NCBI RefSeq assembly: GCF_902729425.1
Contig: NZ_LR746532.1
Span: 1-58,234, forward strand
DNA: 58,234 nt
Direction: 5' to 3'
Source: Magnetospirillum sp. SS-4
GTDB taxonomy: Bacteria; Pseudomonadota; Alphaproteobacteria; Rhodospirillales; Magnetospirillaceae
The notes beneath the pieces are model-generated. The model ran no database searches. It had not been told where the DNA came from and saw nothing but the letters and a program-made list of their open reading frames with translations. Positions 1 to 8,166 of the stretch are shown here, piece after piece; position 1 is the stretch's first letter, and every line of letters starts with the position of its first letter. The position numbers were made by a program, and so were the translations under genes.

Positions 1-1
1 T

Positions 2-1012
2 GACCTGATGGGGCAGATCATGCAGTCCAAACTGCATGGCGCCGAAGGGAAGGCCATCGCCGCCGCTGAAATAGTGGCAGCCATGCCGGTGGTCAAGAAG
101 GCTTTCGCCGCCCGCGACCGCGCCCAGCTTCTGGCGGCCACCCAGGACGCCTATCAGGTGCAGCATGAGAAATACGGCATCAGCCAGGCCCAGTTCCATC
201 TGGCGCCGGCCGTGTCGTTTCTCAGGGTGCATCGCCCTGATAGATTCGGAGACGATCTGTCCAAGGCCCGGCAGATGGTCGTCGAGGTCAATCGCAGCAA
301 CGGAATCCGCAAGGGAATCGAAATTACGAGCACGGGTATCGGCGTGTTCGGCACGATGCCGGTGGCCGATGAAGCCGGCAAGCCCATCGGCAGCTTCGAG
401 ATGGGGTTTGAAATCGAGCCGCTGCTGGAGGAAATCAAGAAAGCGTACGGCTTTGAAGTGGGGTTCTTCGTTGACGAGAAAATTCTGCGGGAGACCGCAA
501 CCCACATCAAAGGCGATATCTTCAGCGACCAGAAACGGGTCGGCTCCTTCGTCAGGTTCAGTTCGACTCACCCTGACTTGCTGAAGGCGCTGGTGACCGA
601 CGGCGTTATCAATGTGACCGAGCAGACGCACTACCTGCACGAGGTGAACGGCGTGCCGTACGGCGTGCTGCTTCAGCCGGTTTATGACTATGCCAAGAAG
701 CCGATCGGAGTCATGGCCATAGCCGCTGATTTCACCGATACCCGTTCCGCCGATGGCCAGGCGGTGGTGTGGCAGATATTGTTGGCGCTGGTATCCGGCG
801 TATTGCAGATCGGCGTCATTCTGGTCATGGTCCGGGGCAAGATCCTGCGTCCGCTGGAAGTTCTGAACGAGCGCGTCGCAGCCCTGGCCGATGGGGCCGA
901 GGGCCGCGACCTTCCCGAAGCCTTGTGCGGTGAAATGCAGGTTCTGGCGGAAAGCTGCGAACGTCTTGCCGCGCGGGCGGCGGGCGAAGCCGGCAAAGGG
1001 GATGCGCCATGA
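2..1012 (+). CDS. Double-Cache (dCache_3-like) membrane sensor without output domain, 5' truncated by window edge
   Basis: The reading frame is open to the first base, so the true start and probably an N-terminal membrane helix lie outside the window. The visible part resembles the periplasmic dCache_3 sensor of chemoreceptors: helical start with AAMPVVKKAFAARDRAQLL, then FHLAPAVSFLRVH and FGDDLSKARQMVVEVNRS, typical of this ligand-binding fold. A transmembrane helix follows (about bases 757-837) and then a short HAMP-like start (KILRPLEVLNERVAALADG). The protein ends there, with no methyl-accepting, kinase or GGDEF domain. Its stop overlaps the start of the channel gene by ATGA, so translation is probably coupled. 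I infer a small-molecule sensor serving the downstream channels. A degraded chemoreceptor is the alternative. Confidence 0.75.
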   Translation, partial: DLMGQIMQSKLHGAEGKAIAAAEIVAAMPVVKKAFAARDRAQLLAATQDAYQVQHEKYGISQAQFHLAPAVSFLRVHRPDRFGDDLSKARQMVVEVNRSNGIRKGIEITSTGIGVFGTMPVADEAGKPIGSFEMGFEIEPLLEEIKKAYGFEVGFFVDEKILRETATHIKGDIFSDQKRVGSFVRFSSTHPDLLKALVTDGVINVTEQTHYLHEVNGVPYGVLLQPVYDYAKKPIGVMAIAADFTDTRSADGQAVVWQILLALVSGVLQIGVILVMVRGKILRPLEVLNERVAALADGAEGRDLPEALCGEMQVLAESCERLAARAAGEAGKGDAP

Positions 1013-2151
1013 TCCGCGCCGTCTTCCGCGCTTCAGGACCGTTTCTGGCGATTCTGCTGGGGGTTGCCGCCGGCATCGCGACGTTGGCGGCGACGGCAGA
1101 TGCGAAGCCTCCGGAACCGGCTCTGTCCTCCGTCGGCGCTCCGCCGCTGACTTCGATTCCCACCGGGAAGGGACTGCCGGTCGTCGTCCGGACCGGCCTG
1201 TTCGTCAATCACGTCGAATCCTTCGACGACAATAAAGGGACCTTCGAGGCGACCACCGATTTACGCCTGACCTGGTTCGACACCAGATTACGCTACCCCG
1301 CCGAAGAGGGGCTGCACGGTTACAAGGAATACCGCGCCTCGGCGGCGGAAGAAGAGCTTGCCAGGATTTGGACCCCACGGATACGGCATCTGAACCGCGT
1401 CGGCGAACCCTCGTTCATCGAAAGGCGATTGCGGCTTTTTCCCAACGGAATGGTCGAGGTCATCGCCCGCACCACGGCGGTCTATAAGGTGACGGTCGAC
1501 ACCACGAAATTTCCGTTCGACCGTCAGGCGCTGCCAATCGAACTGATGGTGCACGAAGACACGGTCGAGACGGTGGACATGGATTTCACCAGCGATGATG
1601 TCAGCTTCAGCCGCGTCGCCAAGTCCGTCGAGATCGGAGGGTGGACGCCCGGCCTGGTGAGACTGAACCGCGATCTCGTCAAGGGCTGGAACGGCGATCG
1701 TTACGCCAAGGTGGCGGTGATGATCGATGTCGGGCGGGTCGCCGTCGAATCCCTCTCCACCATTTTCATCCCGCTGTTCGCTTCGCTGCTGATTCCCTTC
1801 CTGGCGACCTGGATGAACAAGGCCGTAGAGGGAGAGTTCGAGGTCGAAGCGTTCGAACTCGGCAACGTCATCATCGGCGGACTGTTTGCCGTAATCGCCC
1901 TAAGCTTCACCATCAGTTCCGCGTTTCCGGCGCTTATGGCGGGCGACAACACGGTCACGCGGCTTCTCGCCTTGAATTACGTCGCCCTGGCGGTCGGCAC
2001 GATAATCACGGTGGTGTTTTACCGCTATCGCCTTCCGGCCACCTGGTTCGGTCCTTACGTGCAGGAACAAGCGTTCGGTTTCCTGTCCTGGGCCTTTCCA
2101 GTTCTGTTCATCGCCACCGGCGTGGCATTCGTCATGATCGCGGCGGCATAG
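1009..2151 (+). CDS. Prokaryotic pentameric ligand-gated ion channel (Cys-loop/pro-loop family)
   Basis: 380 residues. A signal peptide (about 1-32, ending ATADA) is followed by an extracellular beta-rich ligand-binding domain and four membrane helices, the layout of GLIC and ELIC. The family signature FPFDRQ lies at residues 168-173. The two Cys-loop cysteines are absent, as in other prokaryotic members. M1 (about 247-268) carries the usual proline. M2 begins near E283, close to the -2' position that is acidic in cation-selective GLIC, and ends at SSAFP. M3 and M4 follow, and there is no large intracellular loop. The length fits the family, with a slightly long proline-rich N-terminus. Overlap with the Cache gene and the sodium channel 36 bases downstream suggest one transcript. 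Cation selectivity is inferred, and the ligand cannot be read from sequence. Confidence 0.9.
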   Translation: MIRAVFRASGPFLAILLGVAAGIATLAATADAKPPEPALSSVGAPPLTSIPTGKGLPVVVRTGLFVNHVESFDDNKGTFEATTDLRLTWFDTRLRYPAEEGLHGYKEYRASAAEEELARIWTPRIRHLNRVGEPSFIERRLRLFPNGMVEVIARTTAVYKVTVDTTKFPFDRQALPIELMVHEDTVETVDMDFTSDDVSFSRVAKSVEIGGWTPGLVRLNRDLVKGWNGDRYAKVAVMIDVGRVAVESLSTIFIPLFASLLIPFLATWMNKAVEGEFEVEAFELGNVIIGGLFAVIALSFTISSAFPALMAGDNTVTRLLALNYVALAVGTIITVVFYRYRLPATWFGPYVQEQAFGFLSWAFPVLFIATGVAFVMIAAA

Positions 2152-2187
2152 TCGCCGGCCGAGGGTGGATAAGGGGGATTTTTGTAA

Positions 2188-3030
2188 ATGGATGCGACAA
2201 CAGCTCCGGTCGGGGTGTGCGAGAGAGCCGGCAAGTGGGTGGAAAGCAGTCAGATACAGCTTTTCATCACGGTCCTGATCATCATTAACGCCATCATTCT
2301 CGGCCTTGAAACCTCGGCCGTCGTGGTGGCGCATGTTGGCCCGTTCCTGAGCATTCTCGATGACGCCATCCTGGGTGTCTTCATCGTTGAACTCACCTTG
2401 CGCATCGCGTATCGGCGGGCGGAGTTCTTCAAGGATGGCTGGAGCCTGTTCGATCTGGCCGTGGTGTTGATTGCCGTTTTGCCGACCGGCCCGGGCTTGG
2501 CGGTTCTACGGTCGTTGCGCGTTCTGCGCGTGTTGCGTCTGATCACGGTCTTGCCGCGCCTGAAGATGATTGTCCAGGCACTGCTGTCGTCGCTGCCGGG
2601 ATTGGGAATGATCGCGCTGCTGCAAAGCCTGCTGTTCTATGTGGCCGCCGTCATTTCCACCAAGACGTTCGGCGAGGATTTTCCCGAATGGTTCGGCTCT
2701 TTGGCTGCGTCTCTCTATAGCCTGTTCCAAATCATGACCCTGGAAAGCTGGTCCATGGGTATCGTCCGCCCGGTAATGGAGAAGTTTCCCTTGGCCTGGG
2801 TGTTTTTTGTTCCGTTCATCCTGATTGCCACCTTCACCATGCTGAATCTTTTCATCGCAGTGATCGTCAACGCCATGCAAACCTTGCATGAACAGGAACG
2901 CGGCGAGATCGAGCATGACATTCAAGATATTGCCCACAAGGAATCGGCGGCGATCCTTGCGGAGGTGAAGGACCTGAGGGCCGAGATCGCCGCCTTGCGG
3001 CAGGACATGCAAGCCCGGCGGCAAGATTAG
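2188..3030 (+). CDS. Bacterial voltage-gated sodium channel (BacNav, NavMs-like)
   Basis: 280 residues forming one six-helix channel domain that would assemble as a tetramer. S4 has four arginines at three-residue spacing (R108, R111, R114, R117) in RSLRVLRVLRLITVLPRLK. The selectivity filter TLESWSM (184-190, with E186) is, as I recall it, identical to that of NavMs and belongs to the sodium-selective NaChBac class. S6 (FTMLNLFIAVIVNAM) is followed by an acidic neck and a C-terminal coiled coil (HKESAAILAEVKDLRAEIAA), as in BacNav tetramers. It lies 36 bases downstream of the ligand-gated channel on the same strand. Known roles of BacNav include motility, chemotaxis and pH homeostasis. I infer that it could amplify depolarisation started by the upstream channel. 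Confidence 0.93.
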   Translation: MDATTAPVGVCERAGKWVESSQIQLFITVLIIINAIILGLETSAVVVAHVGPFLSILDDAILGVFIVELTLRIAYRRAEFFKDGWSLFDLAVVLIAVLPTGPGLAVLRSLRVLRVLRLITVLPRLKMIVQALLSSLPGLGMIALLQSLLFYVAAVISTKTFGEDFPEWFGSLAASLYSLFQIMTLESWSMGIVRPVMEKFPLAWVFFVPFILIATFTMLNLFIAVIVNAMQTLHEQERGEIEHDIQDIAHKESAAILAEVKDLRAEIAALRQDMQARRQD

Positions 3031-3194
3031 GGCAAAGGTACGGTTAGCCCCAAGATGGCCGGTGCGGCGAGCCCCATATCCGCACCACCCTGATGGATCG
3101 GATTTGGCTCTGGATCAATGAAAAGGGTCTTTGCCTTCGTGACAGCGTGGGAAATCCGGGGTAAACCTCCGGCCATCCTGCGAGAGGGAAGATC

Positions 3195-3773
3195 ATGCTG
3201 AAGCGGCTTTACGACTGGATGATGGACAAGGCGGCGCATCGGCACGCCATCTGGTGGCTGGCGGCGGTATCCTTCATCGAAAGCTCGTTCTTCCCCATTC
3301 CGCCCGACGTCATGCTGATTCCCATGGTGATCGCCGCGCCCACCCAGTGGCTGCGCATCGCCATGATCTGCACCCTGTCCTCGGTGGCCGGCGGCTATCT
3401 CGGCTACGCCATCGGCTACTTCGCCATGGACAGCATCGGCGCGGCGATTCTCGGCGCCTTTCACCTGAACGACAAGTTCCTGGCGCTGAAGCCGATCATT
3501 GACGAGTGGGGGGTGTGGTTCATCATCATCAAGGGGATGACGCCGATTCCCTACAAGCTGGTGACCATCACCGCCGGCGCGTTCGATTTCGATCTGGCCA
3601 ACTTCACCTTCGCCTCGTTCCTGGCGCGCGGCATGCGGTTCTTCCTGGTGGCGGCGCTGCTGTGGAAATTCGGCCCGCCGATCCGCGACTTCGTCGAGAC
3701 CCGTCTCAAGCTGGTGACGACGGTGTTCGTCGTCCTGCTGATCGGCGGATTCTTCGTGGTCAAGCTACTCTGA
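3195..3773 (+). CDS. YqaA/DedA family (VTT-domain) inner-membrane protein
   Basis: 192 residues with several hydrophobic helices. The SNARE-associated/DedA (VTT) fold is recognisable from FIESSFFPIPPDVMLIPM near the N-terminus, the glycine-rich GGYLGYAIGYF segment and KGMTPIPYKLVTITAGAF, the re-entrant signature of the YqaA branch. DedA relatives are implicated in undecaprenyl-phosphate or phospholipid flipping and membrane homeostasis, but the substrate of the YqaA group is not established. The start follows a GAGAGGGAAG Shine-Dalgarno stretch. The 3' end overlaps the convergent hpnL gene by nine bases, so there is no room for a separate terminator between them. Confidence 0.85.
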   Translation: MLKRLYDWMMDKAAHRHAIWWLAAVSFIESSFFPIPPDVMLIPMVIAAPTQWLRIAMICTLSSVAGGYLGYAIGYFAMDSIGAAILGAFHLNDKFLALKPIIDEWGVWFIIIKGMTPIPYKLVTITAGAFDFDLANFTFASFLARGMRFFLVAALLWKFGPPIRDFVETRLKLVTTVFVVLLIGGFFVVKLL

Positions 3774-4736
3774 GGCGTTCTGGCGGGATTTGGCGGCGGC
3801 GCCCTCGGCGAAATGCCAGGCCAGCAATGCCGGCAGGCCCAGCAGCAATTCGCGGCCGCGCTTGAGCAGGGACACCGCCAGGGCGATTTCGGTCGGCAGG
3901 CCCAGCAGGGCGCCGACGATCATGTAGCCGCCTTCCTGAACCCCGATGGCCGCCGGCACCATGAAGGCGATGCTGCGGATGGCGAAGATGATGCTTTCCA
4001 GGGCCAGGACGTCGGCGAAGTCGAGGGGGTGGCCCAGCAGATGCAGCGCTACCCAGGCCTCTCCCGCTCCGGCGATCCAGGCGGCGACATGCCAGGCCAC
4101 CGACGATAGAACCCGGCGGCGGTCGGCATAGACGGCGTGGATGGCGGCATGGATGCCGGCATCGGCATCGGGAGCCTCCCAGGTCCGGGGCATCAGCCGC
4201 GACGGCAGGGTTTCGAGAAAGCGCGTCAGCGCCGAGCGTTGCAGCGCCACGAAGGCGGCCAGTCCCGGCACGCTCAGCGCCATGGCGATCAAGGCCCAGC
4301 GGGTGACCTCGGATTCGGGATAGTTGCGCAGCCACAAGGCGACGCCAAGCAGGCTGAAGATGGCCTGGGCGACGGCTTCGGCGGTGACGTCGACCACGAC
4401 GACTGCGCTGGCGTCGGCGGTTCGCATCCCCCGCGCCGCCAGCAATCTGACCCCCGCCACCTCGCCCGACAGCGGCAGGAAGCCGGCCAGTTCGCCGATG
4501 CCGTCGCGAATCCAGCGCCCCATCACGAACAGCCGCAGCGGCAGGCCGGTTTGCAGGACGTTCCAGCCGAGGCCGCACAGCGTCATCGGCAGCATGTGGT
4601 AGAAGGCCAGAATGACGACCCCGGTCCAACCGGCGGTGTCCAGCGCTCCCTTGACGTCGCCGAAGCCCTCGCGCAGCCACCATGCGACGCCGAGAACGAC
4701 GCCGATCAGGGCGAGGCGCAGGACCGCCGCCGTCAT
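3765..4736 (-). CDS. hpnL: HpnL-type hopanoid-associated membrane protein (LPG synthase TM / UPF0104 family)
   Basis: 323 residues, almost entirely hydrophobic, belonging to the lysylphosphatidylglycerol synthase transmembrane (UPF0104) family. Hallmarks are GELAGFLPLSGEVAGVRLL in the middle, FAIRSIAFMVPAAIGVQEG near the C-terminus and the KRGRELLLGLPALL tail. The ATG overlaps the stop of hpnK in an ATGA arrangement, which fixes the start and argues for coupled translation. Membership of an hpnN-hpnK-hpnL operon supports the HpnL assignment over a generic flippase-like protein. Family members are proposed to move or modify membrane lipids or lipid precursors. The exact reaction in hopanoid biology is unsettled. 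Confidence 0.85.
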   Translation of the reverse strand: MTAAVLRLALIGVVLGVAWWLREGFGDVKGALDTAGWTGVVILAFYHMLPMTLCGLGWNVLQTGLPLRLFVMGRWIRDGIGELAGFLPLSGEVAGVRLLAARGMRTADASAVVVVDVTAEAVAQAIFSLLGVALWLRNYPESEVTRWALIAMALSVPGLAAFVALQRSALTRFLETLPSRLMPRTWEAPDADAGIHAAIHAVYADRRRVLSSVAWHVAAWIAGAGEAWVALHLLGHPLDFADVLALESIIFAIRSIAFMVPAAIGVQEGGYMIVGALLGLPTEIALAVSLLKRGRELLLGLPALLAWHFAEGAAAKSRQNASE

Positions 4737-5596
4737 GCCCGCTCGGCTTCCCTGGCGAAGGTGGTCAGGACGATGCCGCCGTCTTGCACCTTGGCGCGGT
4801 TGCCGGCGTCGGTCAGGGCCGAATACTCGTCGGCCACGCGGTAATGCGGCGGCATCGGACGTTCGTCCCAATGGCGGGTGGCGGGATGGCTGTAGATTTC
4901 CGTCAGTCCCTCGGGCAGCGCGTCGAGGAAGTCGCCGACCGTTCCGGCATCCATGGCGCCGGAATCGTTGAGGCCGAAGGCCTGTCCGTTGGCGATCAGG
5001 CCGGCCTGCTCCACCCTTTTCCGCATGCGCTCCGTCCGGCGCCAGTGGAAGATTCCGTTGAACAGCCGAAGGCCCAGGCGGTTCCGGCGCGCCCGCCACG
5101 ACGGCAGCGGCGGTTCCCACGGGATACGGATGCCGGGCGCCCCGTATTCCACCGCCAGATCCAGCATCAGGTCGAACACGGTGGGATGGAGATGGTAATG
5201 GTGGTGACTGTCCACATGGGCCAGGGGCAGGCCGGTGGCCTTGAACAGCTCGAACTGGGCCCGTATTTCGGCGGCGACCTGATTCCGCACCGTCCTGGAC
5301 AGGTAGATGCGGGTGCCCAGCCGCACCAGATCCAGGGTGAAGTGGCCGTTCGCGTCCACCAGATCGGGAATCTCGGACGGCGGCAGGGCGGGAACGCCGT
5401 CCACCAGCGTCATGTGCAATCCGACGCCCAGCGACGGCAGCGCCCTGGCCCGCCGGACGGCATCATCCCGGGCGGCTTCGGTCACCATCAGGCTGGCGGC
5501 GGTGAGGATGCCGTTGACGTGGGCGTCCTCCACCGCGTCGTTGACCGGCAGGGAGCGGCCGAAATCATCGGCGGTGACAATCAGCCGTCTGCTCAT
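4733..5596 (-). CDS. hpnK: HpnK, YdjC-type carbohydrate deacetylase of hopanoid cluster
   Basis: 287 residues with the YdjC/ChbG deacetylase fold. The metal and catalytic motif TADDFGRS is at residues 7-14. H96 (GVGLHMTLVDG) and the HVDSHHHYHLHP cluster supply further metal ligands, and EIYSHPA lies near the C-terminus. HpnK proteins are assumed to remove an acetyl group from an N-acetylated sugar headgroup during maturation of glycosylated or amino-modified bacteriohopanepolyols. The start overlaps the hpnN stop by four bases (ATGA), and its own stop overlaps hpnL in the same way, so the three genes form a tightly coupled operon. All catalytic residues visible in the family appear intact. 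Confidence 0.88.
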   Translation of the reverse strand: MSRRLIVTADDFGRSLPVNDAVEDAHVNGILTAASLMVTEAARDDAVRRARALPSLGVGLHMTLVDGVPALPPSEIPDLVDANGHFTLDLVRLGTRIYLSRTVRNQVAAEIRAQFELFKATGLPLAHVDSHHHYHLHPTVFDLMLDLAVEYGAPGIRIPWEPPLPSWRARRNRLGLRLFNGIFHWRRTERMRKRVEQAGLIANGQAFGLNDSGAMDAGTVGDFLDALPEGLTEIYSHPATRHWDERPMPPHYRVADEYSALTDAGNRAKVQDGGIVLTTFAREAERA

Positions 5597-8166
5597 GGCC
5601 TGGGCTTTCCGACGAGGTGGACCAGGGCCGGCAGCACCAGGAAGGTCGCCGCCACCGTCATGGCCAGCGACAGGGTCAGCAGCAGGCCCATGGAGGCGGT
5701 GCCGAGATGGGGCGACAGCGCCAGCGAGCCGAAGGCCGAGGCGGTGGTGAGGGCGCTGAACAGGACCGCCCGGGCGGTCGGCGATTGCAGATGGTCGGCG
5801 AGGCCATTGCGCCAGTTGACCACGAAGTAGATGTTGAAGGCGACGCCGATGCCCAGCAGCAGCGGCAGGGCGATGACATTGGCGAAGTTGAGGGCGATGC
5901 CGAGGAGGTGGGCGGCGATCACCGTTCCCATCGCCCCCACCAGCAGCGGGGCCAGCACCAGCAGCGAATCCAGCATCCGGCGCAGCATCAGCCACAGCAG
6001 CAGGCCGATGGCCACCAGGGCGGTGGCGGCGGCGATGGCGAAGGCGCCGATGACCACCCGGCCGGATTCCTCCATGGTGATGGGCGGGCCGGCGACCAGC
6101 GGCGTCACCGCCTTGACCGCGTCGGCGAAACGGCCGCGGGCGGCCTGGTCGGACATGTGTTCCTTGGGCAGGACGCGGATGCGGGCGCGCCCATCGGCGG
6201 CGATCCAGTCGGCCTTGAGATCGGGCGGCAAGGTCTCCAGGCTGACCGGCCCGACGTCGAGGCTGCGGCGCAGGCTTGACACCAGCGTGGCGAGGCCGGC
6301 GGCGCCGGCCCGTTGCAGCGCCTCGGCCGCCTCGGGGCCGGCGGCGGCGATGCGGCGAAGATTGCCGGCCAGGGATTGCGACGGCTGGTGCCCGGGGGCG
6401 GTGGCGGCCAGTTGCTCGGCCACGCCGGCGATGGTGGCGCGCAATTCGTCCGGCGTCGGCGGCGGCATCGTCGTGGCCGGCGACAGGGTCGGTCCCAGAA
6501 CGGTGGCGATGTCGGCGATGATCGCCAGCTTCTCGTCCTGCGCCTCGGGAACGAAGGTGTTGATGGTCATGGCGCGCAGCACCAGCGGCGAGTCCTCGAA
6601 GCGATCGGCGAGGGCCGGCATCTCGGCCAGCGACGGCGCCAGCGCCTCGACGGCGTAGACGCCGGAATCCGGATTTCTCGCCATCTCGAAGAAGGTTGCC
6701 ACCGCCTCGGCCTTGGGGTCCTGAAGGTTCAGCGGATCGAAATCAAGCGGCAATGTCGGCAGCAGCGCCGCTCCCGCCGCGCTCACCAGGGCGGCGGCGG
6801 CGACGATGGGCCTCGCCCGCCGCTTCACCCAGGAATCGGCGGAGGCCAGGGGAAAGCCCACGGCCCCCTTTTCCGCCGGCGGCTTCAGCAGGGCCAGCAG
6901 GGCGGGCAGCACGGTGAAGGAGGTCGCCAGGGCGATCATCATGCCCATGCCGGCGATCAGCCCCAACTGGGACACGCCGGTATAGGCGGTGGGCAGGAAC
7001 GACAGAAAACCGGCCGCCGTGGTGATGGCGGCCAGCGACAGCGGCGCCATCATGGTCCGGGCGGTGGTCAGGACCGCCTGGGAGGACGGGACGCCGTGAA
7101 AGCGTTCGGCGCGGTAGGCGGTGACGAACTGGATGCCGAAATCCACTCCCATGCCGACGAACAGCACCGCGAAGGCGACCGAGATCGGATTGAGGGTGCC
7201 GATGGCGAAGGCGGCGAAGGCGGCGGTGGCGATCAGTCCCATCATCAGGCTGATCATGATGGCGGCCACCACCCGGGCGGAGCGCACCGCCCAGAACAGC
7301 AGGCCCAGCACCGCCAGGATCGACAGCGGCCCGGAAATCTCGATGCCCTCGGCCACGGTGGCGAAATTGGCGTCGGCCAGGGCCACCGATCCGGTGATGC
7401 GGATGCGGTAGCCCCGTTCCGGCAGCAGGTCCAGGGATTCGGCGGTGCGGCGGATCAGGCGGTCGGCATCCGCCCCGGCCTCCAGCGCTCCGTAATTCAG
7501 CGCCGGCTGGACCAGCAGGATGCGCCGGGGCTCGTCGCGGCGTTCTCCTCCGGCCATCATGGACTGCCAGTCCACCGGCTCGGCCCGTCCGCCGCCGGCG
7601 ATGGCGGCGGCGGCTTTGTCCAACTGGCGGATCAGCGGCTCCATGTCCTCTATCCTGGCCTGGCCGCGGGCGACGCCCTGGAGGATCATCTCCACCGACG
7701 ACAGCAATCCGCGTAGGCTGGGGTCGCGCGCCACCGCGCCCAGCATGGGCTGGGCCCGGATCAGCTTGTCCGCCATCTCGCCAAGTTCGGAAGCCGACAG
7801 GAACAACAGGCCGTGACGGCGGAAGAACATCTCCTCCGACGGACGGTTCACCCGCAGGATCAGGCCGGTCTCGGCCGCCAGGGCCGCCGCCAGCCGTTCC
7901 ACCGCGTCTTCCGCCAGATCGGGGGAGGGGGCGTCCAGCATCACCACCATGCGGTCGGTGGATTGGGGAAACGCCCGGTCGACCACCCGTTCGGCCTGGC
8001 GGAACGGCAGGTCGGCCGAGATCAGCTTGCTTTCGTCGGTGTCCATGGAGAGATGGGTGGCGGCATAGGCGGCCAGCAGCCCCGATGCGACCAGCGACAG
8101 GATCAGCACCGCCACCGCGTGCCGCCAGCACCATTCCACCACCACCACCGTCAATCGACCCAGCAT
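5593..8166 (-). CDS. hpnN: HpnN, RND-family hopanoid transporter
   Basis: 857 residues, consistent with the HpnN subgroup of RND/MMPL transporters. The layout is one N-terminal helix (AVLILSLVASGLLAAYAATH), a large periplasmic domain starting with the MDTDESKLI motif, a bundle of helices including AVLFVGMGVDFGIQFVTAYR, a second periplasmic domain and a second helix bundle ending VLPALVHLVGKPRP. HpnN moves hopanoids from the inner to the outer membrane. The GVDFGIQF segment corresponds to the sterol-sensing-like helix carrying the proton-relay aspartate. It is the first gene of the operon. The 92-base gap to the upstream gene on the same strand could hold the promoter. Confidence 0.92.
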   Translation of the reverse strand: MLGRLTVVVVEWCWRHAVAVLILSLVASGLLAAYAATHLSMDTDESKLISADLPFRQAERVVDRAFPQSTDRMVVMLDAPSPDLAEDAVERLAAALAAETGLILRVNRPSEEMFFRRHGLLFLSASELGEMADKLIRAQPMLGAVARDPSLRGLLSSVEMILQGVARGQARIEDMEPLIRQLDKAAAAIAGGGRAEPVDWQSMMAGGERRDEPRRILLVQPALNYGALEAGADADRLIRRTAESLDLLPERGYRIRITGSVALADANFATVAEGIEISGPLSILAVLGLLFWAVRSARVVAAIMISLMMGLIATAAFAAFAIGTLNPISVAFAVLFVGMGVDFGIQFVTAYRAERFHGVPSSQAVLTTARTMMAPLSLAAITTAAGFLSFLPTAYTGVSQLGLIAGMGMMIALATSFTVLPALLALLKPPAEKGAVGFPLASADSWVKRRARPIVAAAALVSAAGAALLPTLPLDFDPLNLQDPKAEAVATFFEMARNPDSGVYAVEALAPSLAEMPALADRFEDSPLVLRAMTINTFVPEAQDEKLAIIADIATVLGPTLSPATTMPPPTPDELRATIAGVAEQLAATAPGHQPSQSLAGNLRRIAAAGPEAAEALQRAGAAGLATLVSSLRRSLDVGPVSLETLPPDLKADWIAADGRARIRVLPKEHMSDQAARGRFADAVKAVTPLVAGPPITMEESGRVVIGAFAIAAATALVAIGLLLWLMLRRMLDSLLVLAPLLVGAMGTVIAAHLLGIALNFANVIALPLLLGIGVAFNIYFVVNWRNGLADHLQSPTARAVLFSALTTASAFGSLALSPHLGTASMGLLLTLSLAMTVAATFLVLPALVHLVGKPRP

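Follow-up and report, generated by a model that had tools for sequence, protein, structure and literature searches.

The window analyzed here, a stretch of 58,234 nucleotides from Magnetospirillum sp. SS-4 (contig NZ_LR746532.1), begins with three genes that encode, in this order, a membrane sensor of the dCache_3 family, a subunit of a pentameric ligand-gated ion channel (pLGIC), and a bacterial voltage-gated sodium channel (Nav). Our main finding is that the first two of these genes recur together in other genomes, and comparison of their sequences provides strong evidence that the Cache protein and the pLGIC form a functional pair, perhaps a complex. We draw this conclusion because a Cache gene lies directly upstream of the pLGIC gene in all of the other loci, the two genes overlap, their identities run in parallel, and both have a ratio of nonsynonymous to synonymous substitution rates (dN/dS) near 0.12. 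The Cache-pLGIC pair has been known since 2004, while the Nav gene as its third member is new.

A Conserved Pair of Cache and pLGIC Genes

Searches with the pLGIC sequence alone found five other loci that have the pair, in the genomes G437, G011, G012, G861, and G1113. All five loci outside the window that score above 120 bits to profile A1, built from the window pLGIC and three of these five loci (G861 and G1113 being new to it), have a Cache gene directly upstream (5/5), which weaker pLGIC matches in the same set do not have. The closest relative is found in G437, a metagenome-assembled genome (MAG) of the Burkholderiales, where the best pLGIC segment of the locus (L002), the single one returned by a scan of genome contigs, is 73% identical. 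Its dCache gene likewise stands immediately upstream, and a GGDEF gene, recognized by eye, lies downstream of the pair. G011 and G012, both of the family of the window, also carry the pair, and the most distant one is that of G1113, with a pLGIC identity of 23%. The Cache genes of the window, G861, and G1113 are assigned to dCache_3 by Pfam, those of the other three loci via alignment A2 and the profile derived from it.

In a sample of the class, 4/385 genomes match the window pLGIC, its own included, the other three matches being distant and without this Cache in stretches of 4 kb. A profile of four pLGICs finds 3/399 genomes in the order to which the Burkholderiales MAG belongs, the MAG itself included, and 9/398 in the phylum, the window's own included; among the latter, G861 and G1113 have the pair. 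A stop/start overlap joins the two genes in 6/6 pair loci: ATGA in the window, GTGATG in G437, G011, and G012, and GTGA in G861 and G1113, the choice of GTG as start codon being our reading. Pairwise identities of the Cache proteins closely follow those of the pLGICs (r = 0.989; the six loci yield 15 pairs, not independent of one another), and between the window and L002 dN/dS is 0.117 for the Cache gene and 0.124 for the pLGIC gene, with synonymous divergence near saturation. Judging from these sequences, it is quite likely that the Cache protein physically contacts the pLGIC. The arrangement in the window is also of the kind described by Tasneem et al. (2004), where a separate Cache gene is predicted to share an operon with the gene of a pLGIC.

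As a separate observation on one of these loci, the edge of contig C29 of G861, on the side of the Cache-pLGIC pair, is taken up by a short tandem repeat (AAAAGATTT; L163:1-120).

The Three Genes of the Window

The sequence-only reading, made before any database search, had described three genes on the same strand, the first two overlapping by ATGA and the third 36 bases on, as an operon; coordinates and junctions proved correct (table 1), and the arrangement is indeed operon-like. Its family assignments were also borne out by the Pfam matches to dCache_3, the pLGIC ligand domain, and Ion_trans. In a scan of positions 1-4000, neither promoter-like sites (1 vs. 0.9 expected) nor terminator-like sites (4 vs. 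3.7 expected) exceeded chance; no terminator-like site was called in the 36-base gap, and one at 2088-2101 (+), within the 3' end of the pLGIC gene, is at chance frequency. Position 1 of the window is the start of the contig according to its record, and because of this the first gene is without its 5' end and its upstream neighborhood lies out of sight.

Table 1. Features of the three-gene locus at the start of the window
Feature	Position	Strand	Basis
dCache_3 membrane sensor, N-terminus cut by contig edge, no output domain	2..1012	+	PF14827
Second transmembrane helix of Cache protein, residues 259-277 of open frame	776..832	+	hydropathy scan
ATGA overlap of pLGIC start and Cache stop	1009..1012	+	sequence
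pLGIC subunit, 380 aa, signal-like N-terminal helix and four transmembrane helices	1009..2151	+	PF02931
Pro-loop motif FPFD, residues 168-171	1510..1521	+	motif definition from PMC4795631
Acid-rich M1-M2 loop, residues 271-284, five acidic, ending at predicted -1' glutamate	1819..1860	+	alignment
36-base gap with AAGGGGG (2171-2177), a ribosome-site-like run, before Nav start	2152..2187	+	sequence
Single-domain voltage-gated sodium channel, 280 aa, NavMs/NavAb type (predicted)	2188..3030	+	PF00520
S4 voltage-sensor arginine repeat RSLRVLRVLR, intact	2509..2538	+	sequence, alignment
Selectivity filter TLESWSMGIVRP, identical in 4ekw and G840 Nav over this stretch	2737..2772	+	alignment

The sensor frame matches PF14827 with E 1.3e-32 and 113.8 bits (cut-off 25.7). 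Compared with its full-length homolog of L002, which has 378 aa and transmembrane (TM) helices at 7-25 and 301-319 in the hydropathy scan, it is short of ~42 N-terminal residues including the first TM helix, so that the arrangement typical of dCache_3 sensors, the Cache domain between two TM helices, is present with its first helix visible only in L002. The missing N-terminus was not found elsewhere in the window's own genome, where the full-length homolog used as query gave, besides the window gene, two weak matches (E ~0.1). Behind the second TM helix follows a HAMP-like stub (E 0.028, below cut-off) with no domain beyond it; Pfam found no cytoplasmic output domain in the window protein, such a domain being usual for dCache_3 sensors but not required.

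The pLGIC frame matches the ligand domain PF02931 (E 1.3e-14, 54.6 bits, cut-off 26), while the family of the TM domain, PF02932, gave no match to it; a hydropathy scan shows five hydrophobic stretches, a signal-like one and then four. Among solved structures its best relatives are the chains of GLIC (E 8.6e-11, phmmer vs. PDB). Table 1 of Jaiteh et al. (2016, PMC4795631) lists as hallmarks of Pro-loop receptors the [F/Y]PxD loop, a tryptophan in beta9, an arginine before M1, a proline in M1, and another between M2 and M3; the window pLGIC keeps the seven corresponding positions (FPFD 168-171, W212, R243, P255, and P307), and its relatives L025 and L026 are without the M2-M3 proline in the alignment. 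An insertion of 7-8 residues between M1 and M2 is present in 5/6 Cache-linked pLGICs, and absent from L047 and the five others in an alignment of 11 pLGICs. Counting by hand on printed alignments, we place a leucine at position 0' of M2 and a glutamate at -1', in a register that is unsure owing to this insertion. Position -1' is the site of the cation-selecting ring in nicotinic receptors, and the window pLGIC is probably cation-selective. A basic residue occupies 0' in 79% of the pLGIC family (PMC4795631). Given the warning of Jaiteh et al. (PMC4795631) that the M1-M2 region is no general predictor of selectivity in prokaryotes, we hold this selectivity with moderate confidence.

The third gene is a predicted voltage-gated, Na+-selective channel of the NavMs/NavAb type, combining an Ion_trans domain (PF00520, E 2.1e-39) with an RxxRxxRxxR pattern in S4 and a filter of LESW type. 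Its best solved chain is 4ekw (NavAb, E 1.5e-73), followed by 5hvx (NavMs of Magnetococcus marinus, E 2.3e-71). In the tree it is sister to the Nav of G032 (72% identity, support 100/100).

Farther downstream, the nearest genes scanned with Pfam encode a VTT domain protein, LPG_synthase_TM, YdjC, MMPL, and a response regulator. The LPG_synthase_TM, YdjC, and MMPL genes stand in series at 3768-8166 on the - strand, in a row resembling the hopanoid-associated hpnL/hpnK/hpnN set.

Probable Acquisition of the Locus and Its Rarity among Relatives

The trio looks acquired, as a foreign insert, because it has the lowest guanine-plus-cytosine (GC) content of the window and its pLGIC has a match in 0/16 congeners. 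The GC of the Cache, pLGIC, and Nav genes is 0.609, 0.610, and 0.571, respectively, versus 0.670 for the rest of the window, and the first 3 kb are the lowest of 110 sliding 3-kb windows (59.8% vs. a mean of 66.8%); GC at third codon positions, computed across the window by longest frames, was set aside as unreliable since antisense frames get chosen. Nav matches occur in 2/16 congeners, with 38% identity in the first case and E 8.9e-4 in the second. At the level of the family, the subfamily of the window pLGIC is found in 3/55 genomes, its own included, the other two being G011 and G012. Since other pLGIC-type sequences, mostly PBP-fused and some on MscS, match 17/55 genomes of the family, among them 8/16 congeners, pLGICs as such are not rare in it. 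The plasmids searched gave no pLGIC match, and the viral contigs no relative.

A Possible Chemical-to-Electrical Circuit

The three genes might together constitute an acquired sensory module, in which a ligand on the dCache sensor gates a cation-selective pLGIC and the ensuing depolarization opens the Nav; we put this whole chain slightly below an even chance, a figure weighed against alternatives that partly overlap. The dCache receptor, with its two helices and without enzymatic or chemotactic output, would bind a small molecule in the periplasm, and its conformational change would pass to the co-translated pLGIC, opening or sensitizing it. Depolarization by the pLGIC would then open the adjoining NavMs-like channel, converting a graded ligand signal into fast Na+ entry. 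Action of the Cache protein in trans on the pLGIC is the simplest reading, because this protein is without output domain and sensor domains are fused in cis elsewhere. Functional coupling of the pair to the Nav, taken by itself, seems to us evenly poised.

For a cell of 0.5 x 3 micrometres with 1 microfarad per square cm, as assumed here, ~29,000 charges correspond to a shift of 100 mV and are delivered by 1 pA in ~5 ms. By this estimate a single pLGIC opening should depolarize a small cell; consequently the Nav would add a regenerative, all-or-none, and Na+-specific step, not gain. The sequence-only reading had the Nav "amplify" the depolarization, which was probably the wrong word.

Linkage of Nav and pLGIC genes recurs outside the window. 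In G896, tandem Navs are followed on one strand by a pLGIC fused to a PBP-I domain (Peripla_BP_6, E 1.3e-32), with a last gap of 42 bases; in its congener G917 (both are Magnetococcales), a contig opens on the final part of the orthologous pLGIC, and tandem Navs come next on the same strand; and in G021, which belongs to the family of the window, 3.2 kb separate a Nav from a pLGIC-like gene of the same strand. In the tree, a 14-row group with EGWP filters takes in the Navs of all three genomes (its fork, at 91/100, is not a starred one), whereas the window Nav, with its LESWSM filter, is outside this group, and the linked pLGICs too are of a different subfamily. Within 4 kb, three Nav-pLGIC linkages were seen against 0.045 expected, an estimate from the 12 other genomes in which a Nav (E <= 1e-15) and a pLGIC-type match are both present, which counts one split G917 gene twice and treats places as random; with G896 and G917 taken as one event, P is about 0.001. 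In the order of G896, pLGIC-type sequences, MscS fusions included, are found in 37/48 genomes, though not in G840. To judge by the G840 Nav, which matches 5hvx (NavMs of that species), this order includes Magnetococcus marinus. A probe with PF02931 in genus g360 matched 1/11 genomes and missed fused pLGICs; absence by this probe is therefore no evidence, and a pLGIC query from L048 was used instead.

Several observations weigh against the proposed chain, in addition to the sufficiency of one pLGIC opening by our estimate. The order Cache-pLGIC-Nav, sought in stretches around the pLGIC matches of the family, class, order, and phylum searches, did not recur in any of the genomes searched, where contig edges adjoin three of the remaining five pairs; hence the synteny check suggested by the sequence-only reading failed for the trio and succeeded for the pair. 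No Nav was found in the other pair stretches (L002, L025, L026, L046, and L047), among which the contigs of L025 and L026 end just after the pLGIC and that of L046 just before the Cache gene. G437, which has the closest pair, gave no Nav match (a soft absence, this being a MAG), and G032, which has the closest Nav, shows no pLGIC in the 10.5 kb fetched and has other neighbors. The recurrences are themselves imperfect: in G917 a hairpin-like inverted repeat separates the pLGIC from the Navs, which it precedes instead of following; in G021 the pLGIC is weak (24.7 bits to PF02931, cut-off 26) and other genes lie between; and in G012 the gene after the tandem Navs is not that of a pLGIC. Without G021, and with G896 and G917 as one event, P rises to about 0.04, and the limit of 4 kb was fixed after the data had been seen. 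Stretches of pLGIC type are without Nav in 36/37 cases of one set and 11/12 of another, these sets sharing L050, being in several cases limited by contig ends, and including some fusions of PBP, ligand-binding domain, and MscS that are not true pLGICs. No synteny was found between the flanks of G896, G917, and G861; in the last genome, the contigs with Nav-Nav (C62) and with the Cache-pLGIC pair (C29) both end at these genes but have no end overlap, nor is there G896 synteny from which their joining could be judged.

The missing Navs at the other pair loci, the lack of a Nav match in G437, the other neighbors of the closest Nav, and the uniqueness of the three-gene order among the genomes searched speak for another situation, in which the unit is the Cache-pLGIC pair only and the Nav landed or was carried alongside, perhaps co-transcribed but outside the signal. 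We regard this as a serious possibility, though a doubtful one, since low GC is common to all three window genes, the congeners have neither this pLGIC nor a close Nav, and pLGIC-Nav linkage recurs with other subfamilies. Of the link from chemical to electrical signal in the sequence-only reading, the tie of Cache to pLGIC thus stands on firm ground, while that of pLGIC to Nav draws weaker support from proximity with other subfamilies, in the two Magnetococcales congeners and loosely in the one family member.

Other explanations give the sensor or the channels different tasks. An ion-homeostasis module, serving Na+ re-entry, pH or osmotic balance, or motor energetics while the Cache protein senses the state of the medium, would have precedents in the passages of Tasneem et al. 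(PMC549065) on the Nav of the alkaliphilic Bacillus pseudofirmus, cited there for motile and chemotactic behavior and for the Na+ cycle, and on a predicted operon of pLGIC and Na+/H+ symporter in Microbulbifer; moreover, GLIC, the closest solved relative, is listed as proton-gated. We find it unlikely, no Na+/H+ antiporter or motor gene being among the nearest downstream genes scanned. Slightly less probable still is that the Cache protein only concentrates the ligand near the pLGIC or presents it, and does not gate the channel directly through a conformational change. The same paper (PMC549065) suggested this for sensor domains that are fused to the channel or share its operon, and it would be compatible with a role of the Nav; an anchorage at both ends together with a cytoplasmic HAMP-like stub looks like a build for signaling, not scavenging. 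Animal voltage-gated calcium channels have Cache domains in their alpha2-delta subunit (PMC549065), which, with the adjoining position of the three window genes, might even suggest that the Cache protein is a Nav subunit and the pLGIC a passenger. This is highly improbable, because the Cache gene accompanies a pLGIC in 6/6 loci and a Nav in the window only, and the 16 Nav-bearing stretches scanned gave no match to the Cache profile (0/16).

Returning to the sensory module, its widest form would be a recurrent chemo-electrical circuit, in which a dCache partner or a fused PBP-I drives a cation-selective pLGIC that fires one or two neighboring Nav-type channels, assembled at least two times from different subfamilies. 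We consider this generalization rather unlikely at present; if true, bacteria would have a ligand-triggered regenerative Na+ response, of the type leading from receptor potential to action potential.

Additional Observations on Nav Neighborhoods and Fused Channels

The tandem Navs of G011 and G012 (L030 and L029) have LEGWPD filters; by eye, a response-regulator-like frame lies upstream of them in G011, and an argG-like frame faces them downstream in G012. The Navs of G032, G041, and G021 (L027, L031, and L032) stand beside, or one frame from, frames of ~370-390 aa with a similar start, which by eye are perhaps serine hydrolases and may constitute a second recurrent neighbor of Nav genes.

Three long frames (L068:124-3258, L096:94-3456, and L099:112-3264) combine a PBP-I domain, a pLGIC-like ligand domain, and an MscS channel, that of L096 having also a cyclic-nucleotide-binding domain. 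The PBP and MscS parts are assigned by Pfam, run on these three only, and the pLGIC-like part by phmmer at 30-45 bits; similar frames of ~850-1120 aa, by length and pattern of matches, are present in L065, L066, L069, L072, L089, L091, L095, L100, L104, and L107. Apparently, a ligand module of the nerve-receptor type has here been grafted on a channel of the mechanosensitive type. In G870 (L125:5918-9446), the frame of a PBP-I fused pLGIC and a shorter, pLGIC-like one overlap on one strand and may form a heteromeric pair; no Pfam family was found in the shorter frame (as L080:297-1505).

Comparison with Known Systems

According to the main text of Jaiteh et al. (2016, PMC4795631), in which a term search returned no mention of Cache or operon, unicellular organisms have no pLGIC with a known biological role. 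The gene pair described here offers a direct route to the native trigger of such a channel, by way of a dCache partner that can be screened for ligands and a gene overlap kept across distant lineages. The neighboring Nav offers a readout; it connects two poorly understood families of bacterial channels, relatives of synaptic receptors and of the channels behind action potentials, through a signal that they may share, and makes a bacterial chemical-to-electrical signal testable. Our few searches of the openly licensed literature found no report of a pLGIC-Nav operon or linkage; the relevant passages of Tasneem et al. (PMC549065) mention a Bacillus Nav as an analogy and propose chemoreceptor or chemosensing roles for such pLGIC systems.

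Each component has known counterparts. With NavMs and NavAb, the window Nav has in common the S4 arginines, the LESWSM filter, and a C-terminal helix region. The Nav of G840, a genome of the order of G896, is without a difference from 5hvx over 274 residues in the alignment, and is accompanied by no pLGIC within the 14 kb fetched, nor did G840 match the pLGIC query derived from L048. The pLGIC resembles GLIC, the proton-gated channel of Gloeobacter, in its Pro-loop, the arginine before M1, and the prolines of M1 and M2-M3, GLIC residues being given in the table of PMC4795631, but the relationship is distant (E 8.6e-11), and GLIC has nine gap positions in the printed alignment between M1 and M2, where the window pLGIC is acid-rich. 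The sensor shares with dCache chemoreceptors and sensor kinases (PF14827) a periplasmic double Cache between two TM helices, whereas those proteins have a kinase, MCP, or cyclase output, in place of which the window has the adjacent gene of a channel.

In prokaryotic pLGICs that are fused to PBP-I, as reported for M. magnetotacticum and B. japonicum, or to Cache domains elsewhere, including MCP-N plus Cache (PMC549065), as well as in DeCLIC with its N-terminal domain (PMC12664993), a sensor or accessory domain likewise acts on the channel. There, that domain works in cis, whereas the sensor of the window is a separate membrane-anchored protein. The nearest precedent is the predicted operon of Rhodopseudomonas, which Tasneem et al. 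(2004, PMC549065) describe in one bacterium and in which a stand-alone Cache-domain gene accompanies a pLGIC gene, as in the window. Their passage on this operon mentions no Nav; in the present comparison, six genomes show the pair as overlapping genes, and in the window a Nav is added to it.

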